A stretch of 64,000 nt of DNA from NCBI GenBank assembly GCA_022565355.1, contig JAIUMU010000003.1, positions 245,989 to 309,988 on the forward strand, in the 5' to 3' direction. The notes under the pieces are model-generated. The model was not told where the DNA came from and did not search any database. It worked only from the letters and a program-made list of their open reading frames with translations. Shown here in pieces: positions 15,673 to 25,841 of this stretch (its first letter is position 1; every line of letters begins with the position of its first letter). The DNA is from Idiomarina sp. Lineage in GTDB: Bacteria > Pseudomonadota > Gammaproteobacteria > Enterobacterales > Alteromonadaceae. A program made the translations under genes and the position numbers.

Positions 15673-15706
15673 AAAAACCTCCTGAACTTAGGTTCCGGAG
15701 GTTTTT
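15673..15706. terminator. Bidirectional terminator between serine hydrolase and fliA
   Basis: AAAAACCTCC and GGAGGTTTTT form a long stem with an inner GAAC/GTTC extension. The T runs on both sides serve both convergent transcripts. The right arm overlaps the fliA stop codon. Confidence 0.92.
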
Positions 15707-16421
15707 ACGTAATATCTTCTAACACATGGGCGCGAATACGCTTTATGGCTTGGCTATGTAGCTGAGAAACCCGCGATTCGGTAACCTCTAGCACAGCCCC
15801 TATTTCCTTCAGGTTTAATTCTTCTTGGTAATACAGCGCCATTACCAGTTTCTCTTTCTCGGGTAGGCTAGAAATCGCCTGCGCCACTAACTCTCTGCGT
15901 TCACCATTAAAGAGCGCCTCGGCAGGTGAGCTGTATTCATTTTCAATCGCGCTCGGTTCATTGTGCTCGTTCTTCTCGAGCACCACTTCATCATACGAAA
16001 GTACCAAGCCGTTGTTCGTATCGAGCAGTAGCTTATGATATTCCTCGAGCGGCATATTCAGCGCCGCCGCAATCTCGCGCTCTTCAGGTGGGCGCCCCAG
16101 TTCATGCCCAAGCTTACGCACACAAGCCTCTACTTCACGAGCACTGCGGCGCACGCTGCGCGGTAACCAATCACGGGAGCGCAACTCATCAATCATGGCG
16201 CCGCGAATACGTTGATGGGCAAAGGTAGAAAACGCCGCCCCGGCATTCGCATCAAAACGGCTAAAGGCATCTAACAAGCCTTCAAGGCCGGCTTGAATTA
16301 AATCATCGGTATCCACACCAGCAGGCAAGCGCACCTGCAAAGATAAGGCTTGCCGCCGAACCGCAGGGTAATATTGCTGCAGAACCGATTCTCGATTCAA
16401 TTTGCCTTCAGCTGTGTACAT
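15705..16421 (-). CDS. fliA: Flagellar sigma factor FliA (sigma-28)
   Basis: A 238-residue sigma-70-family factor for late flagellar and motility genes. Region 2 shows DLIQAGLEGLLDAFSRFD and FSTFAHQRIRGAMIDELR; region 3 shows RPPEEREIAAAL; region 4 shows LPEKEKLVMALYYQEELNLKEIGAVLEVTESRVSQLHSQAI, all typical of FliA. It is the last gene of flhB-flhA-flhF-flhG-fliA. At least six sites in the window carry a matching -35/-10 pair (24392, 29546, 31382, 31480, 37673, 60582). No anti-sigma factor FlgM gene is in the window. Confidence 0.96.
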   Translation of the reverse strand: MYTAEGKLNRESVLQQYYPAVRRQALSLQVRLPAGVDTDDLIQAGLEGLLDAFSRFDANAGAAFSTFAHQRIRGAMIDELRSRDWLPRSVRRSAREVEACVRKLGHELGRPPEEREIAAALNMPLEEYHKLLLDTNNGLVLSYDEVVLEKNEHNEPSAIENEYSSPAEALFNGERRELVAQAISSLPEKEKLVMALYYQEELNLKEIGAVLEVTESRVSQLHSQAIKRIRAHVLEDIT

Positions 16422-16433
16422 AATTGGCTACTT

Positions 16434-16904
16434 CTATTCCTTATCGCTTACCGAAGAAACCCGTACGCTAATCAATTCAATATTAAAGAATTGCCGCGCA
16501 CTCTCTCGAACATTGTTAATTAATCCACGCGTAGATACAACCGGCGGGTGCAATAGCAACAGCCGCTTTGGCCCACCGTTCACATTAAGTTTCCGCAATG
16601 CATAATACGCCCGCTGAAAACCATTACTATCGGGTTCCACCCACAATGCCCAACGCGGATACGTTGCTAGCAAATCGGCATAACTACTACTGGCAATATC
16701 TGCAGCAATAAGTTGCCATTGCTCAGCATCACCAACCCACTGTTTACCGCGCTCGGCTAAATGATGCAACTGCGCGCGCACTGCATCTGTGCTGCCATCG
16801 TATTGCGAAGGCAAGCCCACAATTACCAAAGTTTGCTCAGGTGTTGGCGTATGCTGTTGTTGCTTTGCCCAATCTCGTAAACCTGCAGCTTGATCACTAC
16901 TCAC
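16434..16904 (-). CDS. Minimal FlhG/FleN-like protein without P-loop
   Basis: A 156-residue protein in the place of flhG (between flhF and fliA). It opens VSSDQAAGLRDW; DQAxGLR is the N-terminal FlhG motif known to stimulate FlhF GTPase. The later stretch ALWVEPDSNGFQRAYYALRKL, then KRLLLLHPP and ARQFFNIELISV, aligns by eye with FlhG around VVCDEPTSITDAYALIKLL...VANM...FLNVSLEL. The GKGGVGKT P-loop, the DADLG switch and everything C-terminal to that region are missing (usual length about 270-295). The GTG at 16904 has CAGGAG six to seven bases upstream and overlaps the flhF stop by 8 bp. Confidence 0.72.
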   Translation of the reverse strand: MSSDQAAGLRDWAKQQQHTPTPEQTLVIVGLPSQYDGSTDAVRAQLHHLAERGKQWVGDAEQWQLIAADIASSSYADLLATYPRWALWVEPDSNGFQRAYYALRKLNVNGGPKRLLLLHPPVVSTRGLINNVRESARQFFNIELISVRVSSVSDKE

Positions 16905-19083
16905 TTCGAACTCCTGCTGCCGACATAATTTGCATTGCCGCACTTGCCTCAAACAAATGCATAATCCCGCTTAAAATCTTCCGCGCATTGGCCTTGCCAC
17001 GTTTCCCCGGAATGCTAAGTAAGCGCTGACGCGCACTCAATAGCGGCGCTTTTTTAGTGTGCTCAAGGTAAATAGCCAACGCCGCCATGCTACTCGCCAA
17101 CGCCACTAAGGTATTTTGCGGTAATGTGCTATAGCCCGCTTGCTCCAATAATCGATAAGCTTGGCGGCTTAAACTTGCCAACTCATCGCCAGCAAGTTGC
17201 TCTAACACCAGTTGCTCACCTTCCGCTAAGCTCATGTAATCCGGCGTAAGCCAGAAGCGCCGCGCTAAATTGCTATTGCGTTCAATACTGTTTAACTCAC
17301 CGTACCATAGGGTATAGTTCGCCGATTCTCCGGGCAGTGTTATCTTTTCCTGGCTAAGAACTAGCTGCGCAGCTTCACCACGATACTGTAATGGTAGTTT
17401 TGTATGATTGTGCATTGTAGCGCGCAGGGCAAGTGCAGCTACCCGAGCCCCATCTGGCCGCACAACCCGATGATTACGGTTGATTACCGCAATCCAAGCT
17501 CCATTGTTGTGAGCCAGCTCATTTAACAACGCAACTTCAGGTAATGCAGCAAATACATGTTGCTCAGCCGGAAGTTCATTGCAGATGGCAGCGGTAAGTG
17601 GACTATGCTCATCGGCAAAATTTTGCGGTAGATAAGTACATGGCAGCATCTCTCCCGTTGCTACCGAGCACGCCGCTGGTAAGTACCAACTGCAGCCAGC
17701 AACTGGTTTGCTGCGCGGCCAATGCGCTGTTCTAGCTGCTGCCTTAGCCAGCACCGGTACGCCCTGTTGCTGCCACTCAGCCAGCGCTTCCGCCTGCTCA
17801 GTATTCGGCAGCTCGGCAATTTCACGTAGCTCATGCAGCTGCGAAAAGGCGGCCACCTGTTGCTGTAATTGCGCGTACAAACTTGCCAGCGTTTTCCCTT
17901 GCGCCTGTAATTTACCGGTATGTGCGCGCTGCGAAGGTGCCTCATCAACAGTTACCGAAGCCAGCCATTGGCTAAACTCGGCATACTCAGCCGCCACACC
18001 ATCCAGTGCCTTCTCTATCAAAACCGCCGCATCGGGCAATTCTAAATCTTCGGGTACACGTTGGCCGTTGGAAATAAAATGCAGGGTTAGCCCTTCCCGA
18101 ACCAATACATCTAGCGCGCCACCTAAGCGCACCGATTCATCCACTTTCGTAAGAATGCAATCGTGAATATGATTATCGGCCTGCTCGGCGTACTGTTGAA
18201 ATAACTGCACCACTTCAGCGAGAGTTTCTCGTTGGCTTGCACTATTCAATAACAATACCAAGCGAGTTTTCGCCGTATTTGTAGCGCGGGTTTGTAGCTC
18301 GGCAATGCGCTGGGTAAGCCGCTGATCACGTTGGCTCATGCCCACAGTATCTATCAGCACCAGCTTCTTACCCTGCATCCGTTGCTCAAGTTGCTCGAGC
18401 CCTTCGCCATCTTCCAGCGCATACATATCTACATTCAGGAGGCCGGCATATATTTTTAACTGCTCGCGCGCGCCTACCCGATAACCATCGGTGGTTACTA
18501 GCAATAACGCTTCAGCACCAAACTGCATTACATAATGTGCAGCTAACTTGGCGGTGGTAGTGGTTTTACCCACGCCCGTTGGGCCAACTAACGCCACTAC
18601 ACCATCAGCGAACAGTTCCGCTGGCATACCGGGTAGCAATAAACGTTGTTGTAATTGTTCCGCTATCCATTGTGAGATATCCACAACTTTGTTTGCTTCT
18701 GTGCTGGGTAAAGCAGAAAACTGCGCCACGAGTTCGCGAATAAGCTCACCGCTAAAGCCTGCCGCTTGCAAAATATTCACCAGCTCGCGCACTGCATGCA
18801 GTGGCTTTTCTTGCGGTGCTTGCGGCGCTTGCTGTTGGTTCAGCATGCTGCGCATTTCTTGCACTTCACCCAACAAACGTTGCGCTAACACCGAGAAATC
18901 GTTGAGCTGGGTGTTATCCGCTTGCGCTACTTTTTCTTCTAGAGCTTCTTCAGCCATTGCCAGAATTTCATAGCCCTCGGGAAGCTGGCGAGAAGACAAA
19001 ATCATGGCATCAGCGCCTAAGCTCTCACGAACTTGGCGCATCGCATCACGATTATTGGCACCTAAAAAGCGCCTTACACTCAT
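16897..19083 (-). CDS. flhF: Flagellar placement GTPase FlhF with a large C-terminal extension
   Basis: An SRP-type GTPase that sets flagellar position and number. The N-terminus MSVRRFLGANNRDAMRQVRE is the FlhF start; the NG domain (about 100-360) has G1 GPTGVGKTT (167-175), TTDGYRVGAREQL, DTVGMSQRD, TKVDE and FISNGQRVPEDL. FlhF normally ends about here (430-500 residues in total, with a longer N-terminal B domain). This protein runs on to residue 728 with about 370 residues I cannot assign: two probable helical stretches flank a mixed middle part (ICNELPAEQHVFAALPEVAL, WIAVINRNHRVVRPDG). It overlaps flhA by 4 bp and the short flhG by 8 bp. Confidence 0.93.
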   Translation of the reverse strand: MSVRRFLGANNRDAMRQVRESLGADAMILSSRQLPEGYEILAMAEEALEEKVAQADNTQLNDFSVLAQRLLGEVQEMRSMLNQQQAPQAPQEKPLHAVRELVNILQAAGFSGELIRELVAQFSALPSTEANKVVDISQWIAEQLQQRLLLPGMPAELFADGVVALVGPTGVGKTTTTAKLAAHYVMQFGAEALLLVTTDGYRVGAREQLKIYAGLLNVDMYALEDGEGLEQLEQRMQGKKLVLIDTVGMSQRDQRLTQRIAELQTRATNTAKTRLVLLLNSASQRETLAEVVQLFQQYAEQADNHIHDCILTKVDESVRLGGALDVLVREGLTLHFISNGQRVPEDLELPDAAVLIEKALDGVAAEYAEFSQWLASVTVDEAPSQRAHTGKLQAQGKTLASLYAQLQQQVAAFSQLHELREIAELPNTEQAEALAEWQQQGVPVLAKAAARTAHWPRSKPVAGCSWYLPAACSVATGEMLPCTYLPQNFADEHSPLTAAICNELPAEQHVFAALPEVALLNELAHNNGAWIAVINRNHRVVRPDGARVAALALRATMHNHTKLPLQYRGEAAQLVLSQEKITLPGESANYTLWYGELNSIERNSNLARRFWLTPDYMSLAEGEQLVLEQLAGDELASLSRQAYRLLEQAGYSTLPQNTLVALASSMAALAIYLEHTKKAPLLSARQRLLSIPGKRGKANARKILSGIMHLFEASAAMQIMSAAGVRSE

Positions 19084-21164
19084 TTATTCTCTCCAAGTAA
19101 TGCGGTTATTTTTAATGTTCGATCATCTGGCACTTCGGCTTGCGACATTACCACAAGATAGCGCAACTGGCGCCGTAAGAAATGCGCAAGTAGAGGCCGC
19201 AGGCCATGTTGCACCACTAGTACTGGCGCTTCGCCCATGGCTTCTTGCCGCTCTAGTGCAGTGCGCGCCTGCTCTTGTAAAGTAGCCGCTAAGCCTGGTT
19301 CCAGCGCACCACCACTATTCATTGCCTGCATCAGTACTTGTTCTAAACGCACATCGAGGCCCATCACGCGCAACTCCCGGGCGCCACCAAACCACTTCTG
19401 GGTTATGGCTCTACCCAACGCTAAGCGCACCTGTGCGGTAAGTTCATGTGCTTCCGGCTGTTGCCCTTCAAATTCCGCCAGGGTATCAAAAATAGTGCGC
19501 ATATCACGAATTGGTACTTCCTCATCGAGCAAGTTTTGCAAAATACGCTGCAGCACCGTAAGTGATACACATTTGGGCACCACATCTTCCACTAAACCTT
19601 GGTTCTCTTCTGCTAGCTTATCCACGAGTTGCTGAACTTCGCTGCGGCCAAGTAGCTCTCCCGAGAACCGCTGTAATAAATGGTTCAAATGCGTTGCCAC
19701 CACCGTGCTTGCATCTACCACCGTATAACCATAAATTTGCGCGTGTTCCCGCTCACTAGCATCAATCCAAACCGCTTCTAAACCAAAGGCTGGATCTGTA
19801 GTTTCAATGCCATCTACCGTGCCGGTAATTTGCCCCGGGTTAATTGCTAACCACTTATCCGGATGAATTTCCGCAGCACCTACTTCACCACCTTTTAAGG
19901 TGATCACATAGCGATTCGGCGCCAGCTCGAGGTTATCGCGAATGTGTACTACCGGCGGTAAGAAACCCACATCTTGGGCAAACTTTTTCCGTACACTTTT
20001 AATACGCCCCAGCAGCTCGCCTTGTTGACGATCATCTACTAATGAGATCAAGCGGTGGCCCACTTCCATGCCAAGGGTATCCACTAACTGCACATCTTTC
20101 CAAGTGGCTTCGGGCGATTCGAATTGCGCCACCGGCGCATCGGTAACCGGTTCTTCCGCAGCTCGTTTTTTCTGGCCTTGCATAATTCGCCACGCTATAA
20201 AAGCTAGCGCGGCGGTAAATAATAAGAACACGAAGTTGGGCATGCCTGGCACTAAACCAAGCATACCGATTACAATCGCCGCTAAAATCATTACCTTCGG
20301 GTTTACAAACAGTTGGCTTACCATTTGCTGGCCAACATCTTGATCGGTGTTTACCCGTGATACAGTTACACCAGCTGCGGTAGAAATTACCAATGCTGGA
20401 ATTTGTGCTACCAAGCCATCACCAATCGCGAGCAATATGTAGGTTTGCGCGGCATCACCGAAGCTTAAATTATGCTGCATGGTACCAATCATTAAACCAC
20501 CAATGATGTTTACCACCATGATAATCAAACCGGCTACCGCATCACCGCGCACAAATTTACTCGCACCATCCATTGAGCCATAAAAATCGGCTTCTTGAGC
20601 TACTTCTTGTCTGCGTTTACGCGCTTCTTCTTCGCCTACCAAACCCGCATTTAAATCTGCATCGATCGCCATCTGCTTACCGGGCATCGCATCAAGCATA
20701 AAGCGTGCGCCAACTTCCGCAATACGGCCGGCGCCTTTGGTAATTACCATAAAGTTGATAATTACCAAGATTAAAAACACCACTAAACCTACGGCAAAGT
20801 TACCGCCAACCAAGAATTGGCCAAAGGATTCAATTACTTTACCGGCCGCATCACCACCGGTGTGCCCTTCCATTAGTACTACCCGCGTAGAGGCAACGTT
20901 CAAGGATAAGCGTAACAGCGTGGTAAACAGCAGCACCGCTGGGAAGGCCGCAAAATCGAGAGGTTTTTCGGCAAACATACTTACCAAAAGCACCATCAAG
21001 GCTAACGCGATATTAAAGGTAAACAGTAAATCGAGAACGAACGGCGGTAGTGGCAAAACCATCATCGCCAAAATCATCAAGATCAGAATTGGGCCTACCA
21101 ATACAGGTAAGCTGCCGGAAGATAACTTACCGAACTGATTAAGTGCAGGCATCAGCCCCTTCAT
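19080..21164 (-). CDS. flhA: Flagellar export gate protein FlhA
   Basis: The 694-residue major export-gate subunit of the flagellar type III secretion apparatus. About eight N-terminal transmembrane helices hold the conserved FHIPEP-type loop (GKQMAIDADLNAGLVGEEEARKRR); the soluble C-terminal domain (about 345-694) binds substrate and chaperones. Length and motif order are normal. Its start overlaps the flhB stop by 4 bp and its stop overlaps the flhF start by 4 bp, so the operon is tightly coupled. Confidence 0.97.
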   Translation of the reverse strand: MKGLMPALNQFGKLSSGSLPVLVGPILILMILAMMVLPLPPFVLDLLFTFNIALALMVLLVSMFAEKPLDFAAFPAVLLFTTLLRLSLNVASTRVVLMEGHTGGDAAGKVIESFGQFLVGGNFAVGLVVFLILVIINFMVITKGAGRIAEVGARFMLDAMPGKQMAIDADLNAGLVGEEEARKRRQEVAQEADFYGSMDGASKFVRGDAVAGLIIMVVNIIGGLMIGTMQHNLSFGDAAQTYILLAIGDGLVAQIPALVISTAAGVTVSRVNTDQDVGQQMVSQLFVNPKVMILAAIVIGMLGLVPGMPNFVFLLFTAALAFIAWRIMQGQKKRAAEEPVTDAPVAQFESPEATWKDVQLVDTLGMEVGHRLISLVDDRQQGELLGRIKSVRKKFAQDVGFLPPVVHIRDNLELAPNRYVITLKGGEVGAAEIHPDKWLAINPGQITGTVDGIETTDPAFGLEAVWIDASEREHAQIYGYTVVDASTVVATHLNHLLQRFSGELLGRSEVQQLVDKLAEENQGLVEDVVPKCVSLTVLQRILQNLLDEEVPIRDMRTIFDTLAEFEGQQPEAHELTAQVRLALGRAITQKWFGGARELRVMGLDVRLEQVLMQAMNSGGALEPGLAATLQEQARTALERQEAMGEAPVLVVQHGLRPLLAHFLRRQLRYLVVMSQAEVPDDRTLKITALLGENK

Positions 21165-24422: not shown

Positions 24423-24992
24423 TTATTCACCATTATTCGAGGGTGCTTTGCCTGCTTTCGCGGGCTTTTTTAGCTTTGCTTTACCGGGTTTTCCTGCACG
24501 AGAAGGTGGTTGGCAGATGCCACACACATAATCTGTATCTGGGGTGTGGGCATGATTAACAAACTGCAGTTGGCATTGGTTACACGTAGAGAGTTGAAAC
24601 ATATTGCTTTCAAAAAAGCGCAGTAATGTCCAGGCGCGGGTTAAGCCCAGCACTTGCTCACCACCGGTAGATTCAACATGTTCATTATACAAGCGATATG
24701 CTTTGGTGAACGCAGCCATACGATCTAGCTCGGGGTGATCCGCTAGATTCAAATAAATTGAATAAAATAAGGAGGAATGGATATTCGGTAACCAGGTCAT
24801 AAACCAATCGGTTGAGAAGGGGAGCAAACCTTTGGGGGGCGATTCGCCTTTTACTTCTTTATACAACCGAACCAACCTACCGCGGTTCAACTCAACTTCA
24901 GATTCCAAAACCTGCAGCCGCGCCCCAAGCTCTATTAGCTCGATGGCAAGTTGCACTTGGTTCATTTCATCTAAAAGTTTTTTTTCTGACAC
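24423..24992 (-). CDS. flhC: Flagellar master regulator FlhC
   Basis: The 189-residue partner of FlhD in the FlhD4C2 activator of class II flagellar promoters. It is strongly colinear with E. coli FlhC: LAIELIELGARLQVLESE, RLVRLYKEVKGESPPKGLLPFSTDWFMTW, and the zinc-binding cysteines CNQC...CGIC followed by QPPSRAG. The C-terminus ends in a Lys/Ala/Pro-rich tail (KPGKAKLKKPAKAGKAP) in place of the E. coli tail. The start codon is GTG (24992) with AAGG nine bases upstream. It follows flhD by 55 bp. Confidence 0.96.
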   Translation of the reverse strand: MSEKKLLDEMNQVQLAIELIELGARLQVLESEVELNRGRLVRLYKEVKGESPPKGLLPFSTDWFMTWLPNIHSSLFYSIYLNLADHPELDRMAAFTKAYRLYNEHVESTGGEQVLGLTRAWTLLRFFESNMFQLSTCNQCQLQFVNHAHTPDTDYVCGICQPPSRAGKPGKAKLKKPAKAGKAPSNNGE

Positions 24993-25047: not shown

Positions 25048-25350
25048 TTAGCGCGTAGAAGCCATCAACATTGCTAAGTGCGTTTGCGTAAGCCCTGTTT
25101 CGCGTTTGCTGCGCAATACATGCTGAAGTTGCTCAGCGCTGTCGGCGCACGGGCGAAGAACAAATTGACCTTGAGTAGCCAACCAAGTGATTTCACGAAC
25201 AGACATGGATGCCAATAAATCTGCCATTTCACAACTCAATTTCAATCGAAACATTGCCGCATCTCGATCTTCAGTAAGCATTTTCTGTATGAGTAATAAA
25301 TACGCAAGGTTGAGTTCTTGGAACTCTTCCAAAGTTTTTGTGGTTTCCAA
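25048..25350 (-). CDS. flhD: Flagellar master regulator FlhD
   Basis: The 100-residue FlhD subunit of the FlhDC activator. LEEFQELNLAYLLLIQKMLTEDRDAAMFRL matches the E. coli region HIYDINLSYLLLAQRLI..DKASAMFRL. The start is a TTG at 25350: it has GGGAGA eight bases upstream and aligns exactly with the E. coli N-terminus; no ATG fits. The in-frame extension upstream from 25410 lacks a ribosome-binding site. flhD (TTG) and flhC (GTG) both use weak starts, which would keep FlhDC levels low (inference). Confidence 0.9.
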   Translation of the reverse strand: METTKTLEEFQELNLAYLLLIQKMLTEDRDAAMFRLKLSCEMADLLASMSVREITWLATQGQFVLRPCADSAEQLQHVLRSKRETGLTQTHLAMLMASTR

Positions 25351-25841
25351 AAGCCGATCTCCCGTGTTTCTCGGTATGAGAAATGGTGAAGCGTGATATG
25401 TTTTTTGCAATCATCGCAGGATTAACGTGCTACTTATTATTATTCTTGTTAACCATTTGTTATTGATAACGCGATTCAGTTTGTTCGTCAAGACATGACG
25501 CAGCAACTATTTCCATCTTCTTTACGCTAACTTTATAAAACATCGTATCCAATGTGTATGTAGGTGGAAACCCCTGAAAAGCGTAAAGATCGAAAACAAA
25601 CACTTAAGTTACTGAACCTTTAGCCTTTTAAGCTGTTTATTTTTTGAGCTAACGAAACCCGCAGAGCCGCGATAATAGCAGCTTGAACGCTTTCATGTAT
25701 AAATATTTTGTTAAAAATAAGCAGACATTTGATCATTATCAAATCGATATTGGATGTATGAGGAAAAGCGTAGTGGTATTTTTGGCAGGGGTTAATAGGC
25801 AGCAACCTATTAGCATTTGTATATGTTTTGAGCGTTTTGTT
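25351..25841. other. Long AT-rich regulatory region upstream of flhDC
   Basis: A 491-bp gap between flhD and the upstream FlhB-like gene, which reads in the same direction. It is AT-rich, carries a short inverted repeat GTTAT-TG-ATAAC at 25458-25469, and shows no sigma-28 site or credible gene. Long leaders are typical of flhDC, where many regulators converge; no individual site can be named from the sequence. Confidence 0.5.

Follow-up and report, generated by a model that had tools for sequence, protein, structure and literature searches.

A short, P-loop-less putative FlhG with the FlhF-facing DQAxxLR motif in an FlhDC-type flagellar operon of Idiomarina

The closest described relatives of the protein reported here are the FlhG/YlxH/FleN proteins, MinD-like ATPases of the FlhF-FlhG switch. 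FlhG dimerises with ATP and binds the membrane through its C terminus, and a 2025 review presents FlhG as an ATPase and counts its ATP-dependent dimer and membrane cycle as part of the FlhF switch (PMC12826062). The review also gives a gene directly downstream of flhF as a trait of the family, states that far less is known outside monotrichous bacteria, and treats the FlhDC systems of enterobacteria, which have neither FlhF nor FlhG, as a puzzle (PMC12826062). The glutamine of the N-terminal DQAxxLR motif is described as a co-catalytic element, standing in for the SRP RNA for FlhF (PMC12826062), and appears as a co-catalytic element in a second source (PMC12713375). That source also describes Pseudomonas FleN, of the same family and fold as our protein, which has retained its ATPase, still controls FleQ and has no DQAxxLR (PMC12713375), making it a mirror image of the form reported here. 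Bordetella bronchiseptica, a betaproteobacterium with FlhF, is called a known peritrichous organism (PMC7064773), and strains of Pseudidiomarina, likewise a member of the Idiomarinaceae, can be single-polar, peritrichous or non-motile (PMC6193092). Within the portions of the open-licence PMC literature that we searched (including PMC12826062, PMC12713375, PMC7064773, PMC6193092, PMC9558577, PMC2963123 and PMC3180692), we came across no P-loop-less FlhG.

Here we examined the flagellar operon in a 64,000-nucleotide stretch of an Idiomarina sp. contig, hereafter the window. As the initial annotation had noted, the gene in the flhG position encodes only about 156 residues (Table 1). It lies between flhF and fliA, directly downstream of flhF. 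Its start codon falls within the end of flhF, overlapping the flhF stop by 8 bases, and the order of flhF, short flhG and fliA recurs in the named relatives, five loci of Aliidiomarina, Alcanivorax and Alloalcanivorax (Alcanivoracaceae among them). Upstream of flhF lie flhA, flhB, motB, motA, flhC and flhD, of which flhA, flhB and motA are names that we presume. The window FlhF matches solved FlhF over residues 159-362 (PDB sequence search, 2e-44), and its C-terminal extension of ~360 residues (window 16897-18000) has no Pfam match; among the class-sample matches listed, only those of the window genome, G558 and G466 covered this extension over its whole length. The short FlhG protein has no match in Pfam, NCBIfam or PDB sequences.

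Table 1. Features of the flhF-flhG-fliA region and its FlhDC genes (positions in the window)
Feature	Position	Strand	Remarks
Short flhG gene	16434..16904	minus	156 codons, GTG start, stop included; conserved in relatives
DQAAGLR, enhancer-helix motif, residues 4-10	16875..16895	minus	D, Q, A, L, R invariant in 39/39 aligned relatives
FlhG strand 1 + helix 1 with P-loop replaced; TLVIVGLPSQYDGSTDAVRAQLHHLAE, residues 25-51	16752..16832	minus	Three-way alignment, predicted structure
Residues 83-149 (DEPTSITDAYALIK ... RFLDVxL)	16458..16658	minus	Profile-aligned to FlhG 149-218
EPDSNGFQRAYYALRKL, short FlhG residues 90-106	16587..16637	minus	
flhF	16897..19083	minus	728 aa; SRP-type GTPase domain intact; long C-terminal extension
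fliA, sigma-28	15705..16421	minus	Pfam/NCBIfam match
flhA (presumed)	19080..21164	minus	
flhC, master regulator subunit	24423..24992	minus	PF05280, 264 bits
flhD, master regulator subunit	25048..25410	minus	PF05247

Like FlhG/YlxH/FleN, the short form follows flhF, begins with a DQAxxLR helix, finds its best PDB fold matches in this family, and carries strand 1, helix 1 and the DEPxSITDAYALIK and RFLDVxL segments in the same order. Unlike these proteins, it has no Walker A, DAD, VDTAAG strand or C-terminal dimer and membrane part, and is 156 rather than ~285 residues long. A pattern search found neither GKGGxGK[ST] nor any [AG]xxxxGK[ST] in the window protein or among its 45 collected short relatives (45/45 without), which thus have no Walker A P-loop of the FlhG kind. 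At the corresponding column of a three-way alignment FlhG reads VTGGKGGVGKTN, a 270-residue form described below VLSNPHVVNGGA and the window protein VGLPSQYDGSTD, with the same strand before and the same helix after. The window protein also has no DADLG and stops directly after the segment aligned with RFLDVxLE of FlhG, ahead of the region of the C-terminal membrane-targeting sequence, so that the C-terminal membrane-helix part is absent. The enhancer helix is predicted by AlphaFold2 at residues 5-16 with modest confidence (pLDDT 66-69). Alignment and pattern search thus bear out the initial annotation as to the N-terminal DQAAGLR and the missing GKGGVGKT, DADLG and C-terminal membrane part.

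The homology of the remainder, which the initial annotation had proposed from a by-eye alignment of the middle part, is upheld by profile comparison. With 42 short and 29 full-length rows, hhalign gave a probability of 90.8 (E = 1.2e-6, score 48.9) over query residues 83-149, which leaves the motif outside and encloses the by-eye alignment; 150 column shuffles reached at most 20.0 and reversed profiles at most 16.7. A first comparison of 11 short with 10 full rows had given a probability of 3%, and larger sets gave a score of 36.5 (probability 56; 100 shuffles at most 23.6), the full-length sets of both larger comparisons including one row, L108, of only 96 residues (cut at a later DQA). Because the direct score drops with the larger sets, the link to FlhG leans on an intermediate that is first described in this analysis, a P-loop-less FlhG of ~270 residues. 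It was found in the family of G302, probably Burkholderiales/Betaproteobacteria, where FlhF is over the cut-off in 85 of 120 genomes. We read 40 loci downstream of flhF there (L107, L109-L147; FlhF below the cut-off in L143-L145): in 33 the FlhG is P-loop-less and ~240-280 residues long, in five it has a P-loop, and in two flhG is missing. A profile of 31 P-loop-less ~270-residue sequences matched P-loop FlhG with a probability of 99.3 (E = 1.6e-20, 214 columns; shuffles at most 20.0), and the short form matched the ~270-residue form with a probability of 96.9 (E = 1.4e-10, 68 columns; 100 shuffles at most 16.8); L101 (G441), which bears AKGGVGKT, was excluded from the profile sets used here and for the score of 36.5. 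Like the short form, the ~270-residue protein has DQAxGLR or a drifted version of it and sits beside flhF and fliA. Unlike the short form, it is near full length, keeps a middle strand and a C-terminal part, and its motif drifts in some members, with DQA in 22 of 31 and HQA, NQA or TQG in the others. Separately, the P-loop FlhG-like proteins of L143, L144, L145, L148 and L108 have no N-terminal DQAxxLR.

Predicted structure points the same way. Template-free AlphaFold2 models of the window protein (mean pLDDT 80.7 from 11 rows and 86.5 from 39 rows) show five strands with helices between. In a Foldseek search of 350,542 PDB chains, FleN/FlhG took ranks 1-8 with the first model and 1-4 with the second, so the expected FlhG fold was indeed the best match of both models. 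The E-values are nevertheless weak (best 3.0e-3 and 2.4e-3, top matches 2.4e-3 to 1.5e-2), TM (query) is at most 0.54, rmsd mostly 7-12 Angstrom, and other Rossmann-like folds follow closely. The weak E-values and low TM make the fold evidence specific rather than strong; these top matches, together with the profile match, are what place the protein in the MinD-like alpha/beta fold. A SulA-like fold, also considered, was absent among the 50 PDB matches listed for both models. The closeness of other Rossmann-like folds, the low score of the direct comparison when sequences were few and the lack of Pfam or NCBIfam matches are also what one might expect of an unrelated small alpha/beta protein that took over from FlhG and owes its DQAxxLR helix to fusion or convergence. 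However, the profile link through the ~270-residue forms lies far above the shuffles, and the segments keep the FlhG order at the same place in the operon, which leaves such a replacement very improbable. The window protein is almost certainly a reduced FlhG by descent.

A full-length P-loop FlhG encoded elsewhere in the genome would have undone the initial annotation. Neither PF10609, PF01656 nor a profile of ten FlhGs found one in the window genome (2.72 Mb assembly, 95% complete). PF10609 gave four matches there and PF01656 twelve (E up to 0.1), and the eight distinct ParA/CbiA loci that we fetched are what we take to be ParA, an ArsA-type ATPase, Mrp, a Wzc-type kinase, Ffh, a BcsQ-like protein, PyrG and BioD; the four weakest matches (E 0.0098 to 0.09) lie outside these eight. 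The ten-FlhG profile had no match at 1e-15 in any of the eight short-FlhG genomes of the window's family, the window genome included, and it scored 571 and 565 bits in two species of the same genus with polar-type FlhF (G059 and G184). The profile thus finds full FlhG in these two and not in the short-FlhG genomes, and there are therefore two FlhG types within one genus: G059 and G184 combine polar-type flhF with a full FlhG (L069, L070), and the window genome is of the FlhDC type. Over all 80 genomes searched with the profile, 63 of them with short FlhG, none of the 63 had a full FlhG (no match above 76 bits). Eight loci with weaker matches (five in short-FlhG genomes, and those of G563, G568 and G184) were read as candidate hidden FlhGs and rejected as what we take to be MinD.

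The same profile picks up MinD at ~70-80 bits in other genomes. At 1e-15 it revealed no MinD in the window genome (G000) or in G010, G122, G165, G070, G102, G131, G170, G026 and G151, and none of the eight ParA/CbiA loci read in the 95% complete window assembly is MinD; these ten genomes may be without it. In four other genomes, G582 (L056), G584 (L057), G563 (L063) and G565 (L064), fliA comes directly after polar-type flhF, so that no flhG separates them, and the FlhG profile found nothing above MinD level, so that they apparently have FlhF without any FlhG.

The proposed survey of related genomes did recover the short form, in the window's family, in a second family and in Alcanivoracaceae. 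Similar proteins occur in 8 of 196 genomes and 2 of 52 genera of the window's family (around Aliidiomarina; own genome included) and in 3 of 369 genomes of a class-wide sample, own included, of which one is chance: the match in G459 (L028; E = 0.005, internal stop) was dropped. In the second family (that of G558, probably Halomonadaceae) 49 of 101 genomes have the short form, 10 of these weakly (E 1e-5 to 1e-12); for 29 of the 49 the match came without a locus from the same search, and six of the 49 were read a second time. FlhF is over the cut-off in 81 of the 101, including, by reading of the lists, all 49 short-FlhG genomes, and none of the 20 genomes without FlhF over the cut-off carries a short FlhG. 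The remaining 32 FlhF genomes divide into 15 with polar-type and 17 with long FlhF. Downstream of flhF in nine of these 17, we found a more divergent short DQAxGLR protein in seven and no short gene in the other two, G606 and G568.

DQAxxLR is present in all 34 loci gathered by whole-protein similarity that were examined (L005-L017, L027, L029-L048, where L005 is the window's own gene and L013/L014 repeat L006/L007), so the motif is not there by chance. In a 39-row alignment, eight rows of which came from DNA after flhF with the motif itself as a selection criterion, invariance is confined to columns D4, Q5, A6, L9, R10 and W63. Codon-position differences between the window gene and L007 number 49, 28 and 92 (dN 0.31, dS 2.3, the latter saturated), and L006 and L007 differ with dN 0.11 and dS 1.57; judging from these substitutions, the short flhG is under purifying selection. 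A long low-complexity linker separates helix and core in several relatives, ~165 residues in L062 (G569, 1663-2550) and others in L040 and L044-L047, as if the helix were tethered.

These patterns bear on two further readings. In one, FlhG became useless under FlhDC and is now a decaying relic whose motif has simply not yet had time to erode; the drifting motif of some ~270-residue forms fits this, as does the loss of the gene in 2 of 40 loci of the G302 family and 2 of the 9 second-family genomes read, losses from which the function can be dispensable. However, dN/dS is about 0.07-0.14 in the window's genus and the motif stands in 39 of 39 rows though the remainder diverges to 21-28% identity, and we regard decay as quite unlikely. 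In the other, the core and not the helix is what is kept, as an FlhF-bound adaptor or inhibitor acting with the long FlhF extension or the C-ring, with GTPase stimulation weak or lost. FlhF frames span 722-874 codons in all 49 second-family short-FlhG genomes against 424-477 in its polar-type genomes, and core residues such as W63 and W85 are also nearly invariant, both in keeping with an adaptor. The helix residues, catalytic glutamine included, are nevertheless the most conserved of all, and the long FlhF of G606 and G568 has no adjoining short gene; an adaptor role thus seems unlikely.

The reduced FlhG is tied to the flagellar master regulator. FlhC (PF05280) was found in all 48 genomes with P-loop-less FlhG (26 short and 22 long, the latter being all of the ~270-residue genomes tested; scores of 254 bits or more) and in 1 of 32 genomes with P-loop FlhG, a distant 56-bit match in G059 (L101 was left out of this table as well). 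Fisher's test gives 2e-21, an overstated value, as it treats genomes as independent. In a FliA tree of 89 rows the owners of the short and 270-residue forms make up one group (SH-aLRT 94, quick method). A more careful tree of 85 rows, built without four long-branch rows (L108, L143-L145) and still drawing a warning of long branches meeting, places one change of P-loop state among the flhG rows and one change between short and 270-residue forms; its root and direction are unfixed, and polar genomes from the same family as the window are excluded, their FliA pieces being too short. The FlhC association is a single change on this tree and therefore represents one history, not repeated independent evidence. 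One loss of the P-loop plus operon transfer would explain the pattern, which suggests that loss of the ATPase in FlhG accompanies the change of flagellar master regulator.

We propose that an FlhG line lost its ATP-binding site in flagellar clusters under FlhDC, and that this P-loop-less FlhG would then have been cut by ~130 residues, removing the switch II strand and the C-terminal dimer and membrane part. Because the short form keeps the co-catalytic glutamine and loses the ATP dimer and membrane part, we propose that it would be a constitutive, ATP-free enhancer of GTP hydrolysis by FlhF. As in the mechanism described for Bacillus FlhG, its N-terminal helix would place the glutamine inside the FlhF homodimer, and the small alpha/beta core would hold or position the helix with no ATP binding, ATP dimerisation or membrane binding of the known mode. 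Judged from the motif, stimulation of the FlhF GTPase is a likely activity, and the helix would switch FlhF off; we infer the absence of an ATP cycle. The short protein, a reduced FlhG, thus probably acts as a constitutive, ATP-independent carrier of the FlhF-stimulating helix.

More broadly, we lean slightly towards the view that the two jobs of FlhG are separable and were split by evolution. FlhDC-type bacteria would have made FlhG a pseudo-ATPase and one branch then a 150-residue helix carrier, with an FlhF cycle that needs no input from ATP or the membrane; pseudomonads would have kept the opposite half, and enterobacteria, which lost both flhF and flhG, would have followed the same course to its end. 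The proteins collected here are a large natural set of FlhGs that have no ATP site and keep the FlhF-facing helix, and thus a natural separation-of-function experiment. They make it directly testable whether FlhF is served by the ATPase or whether the ATPase acts only for FleQ-type regulators and placement, and they supply intermediates between the polar FlhF/FlhG systems and the enterobacterial FlhDC systems, which have neither protein.
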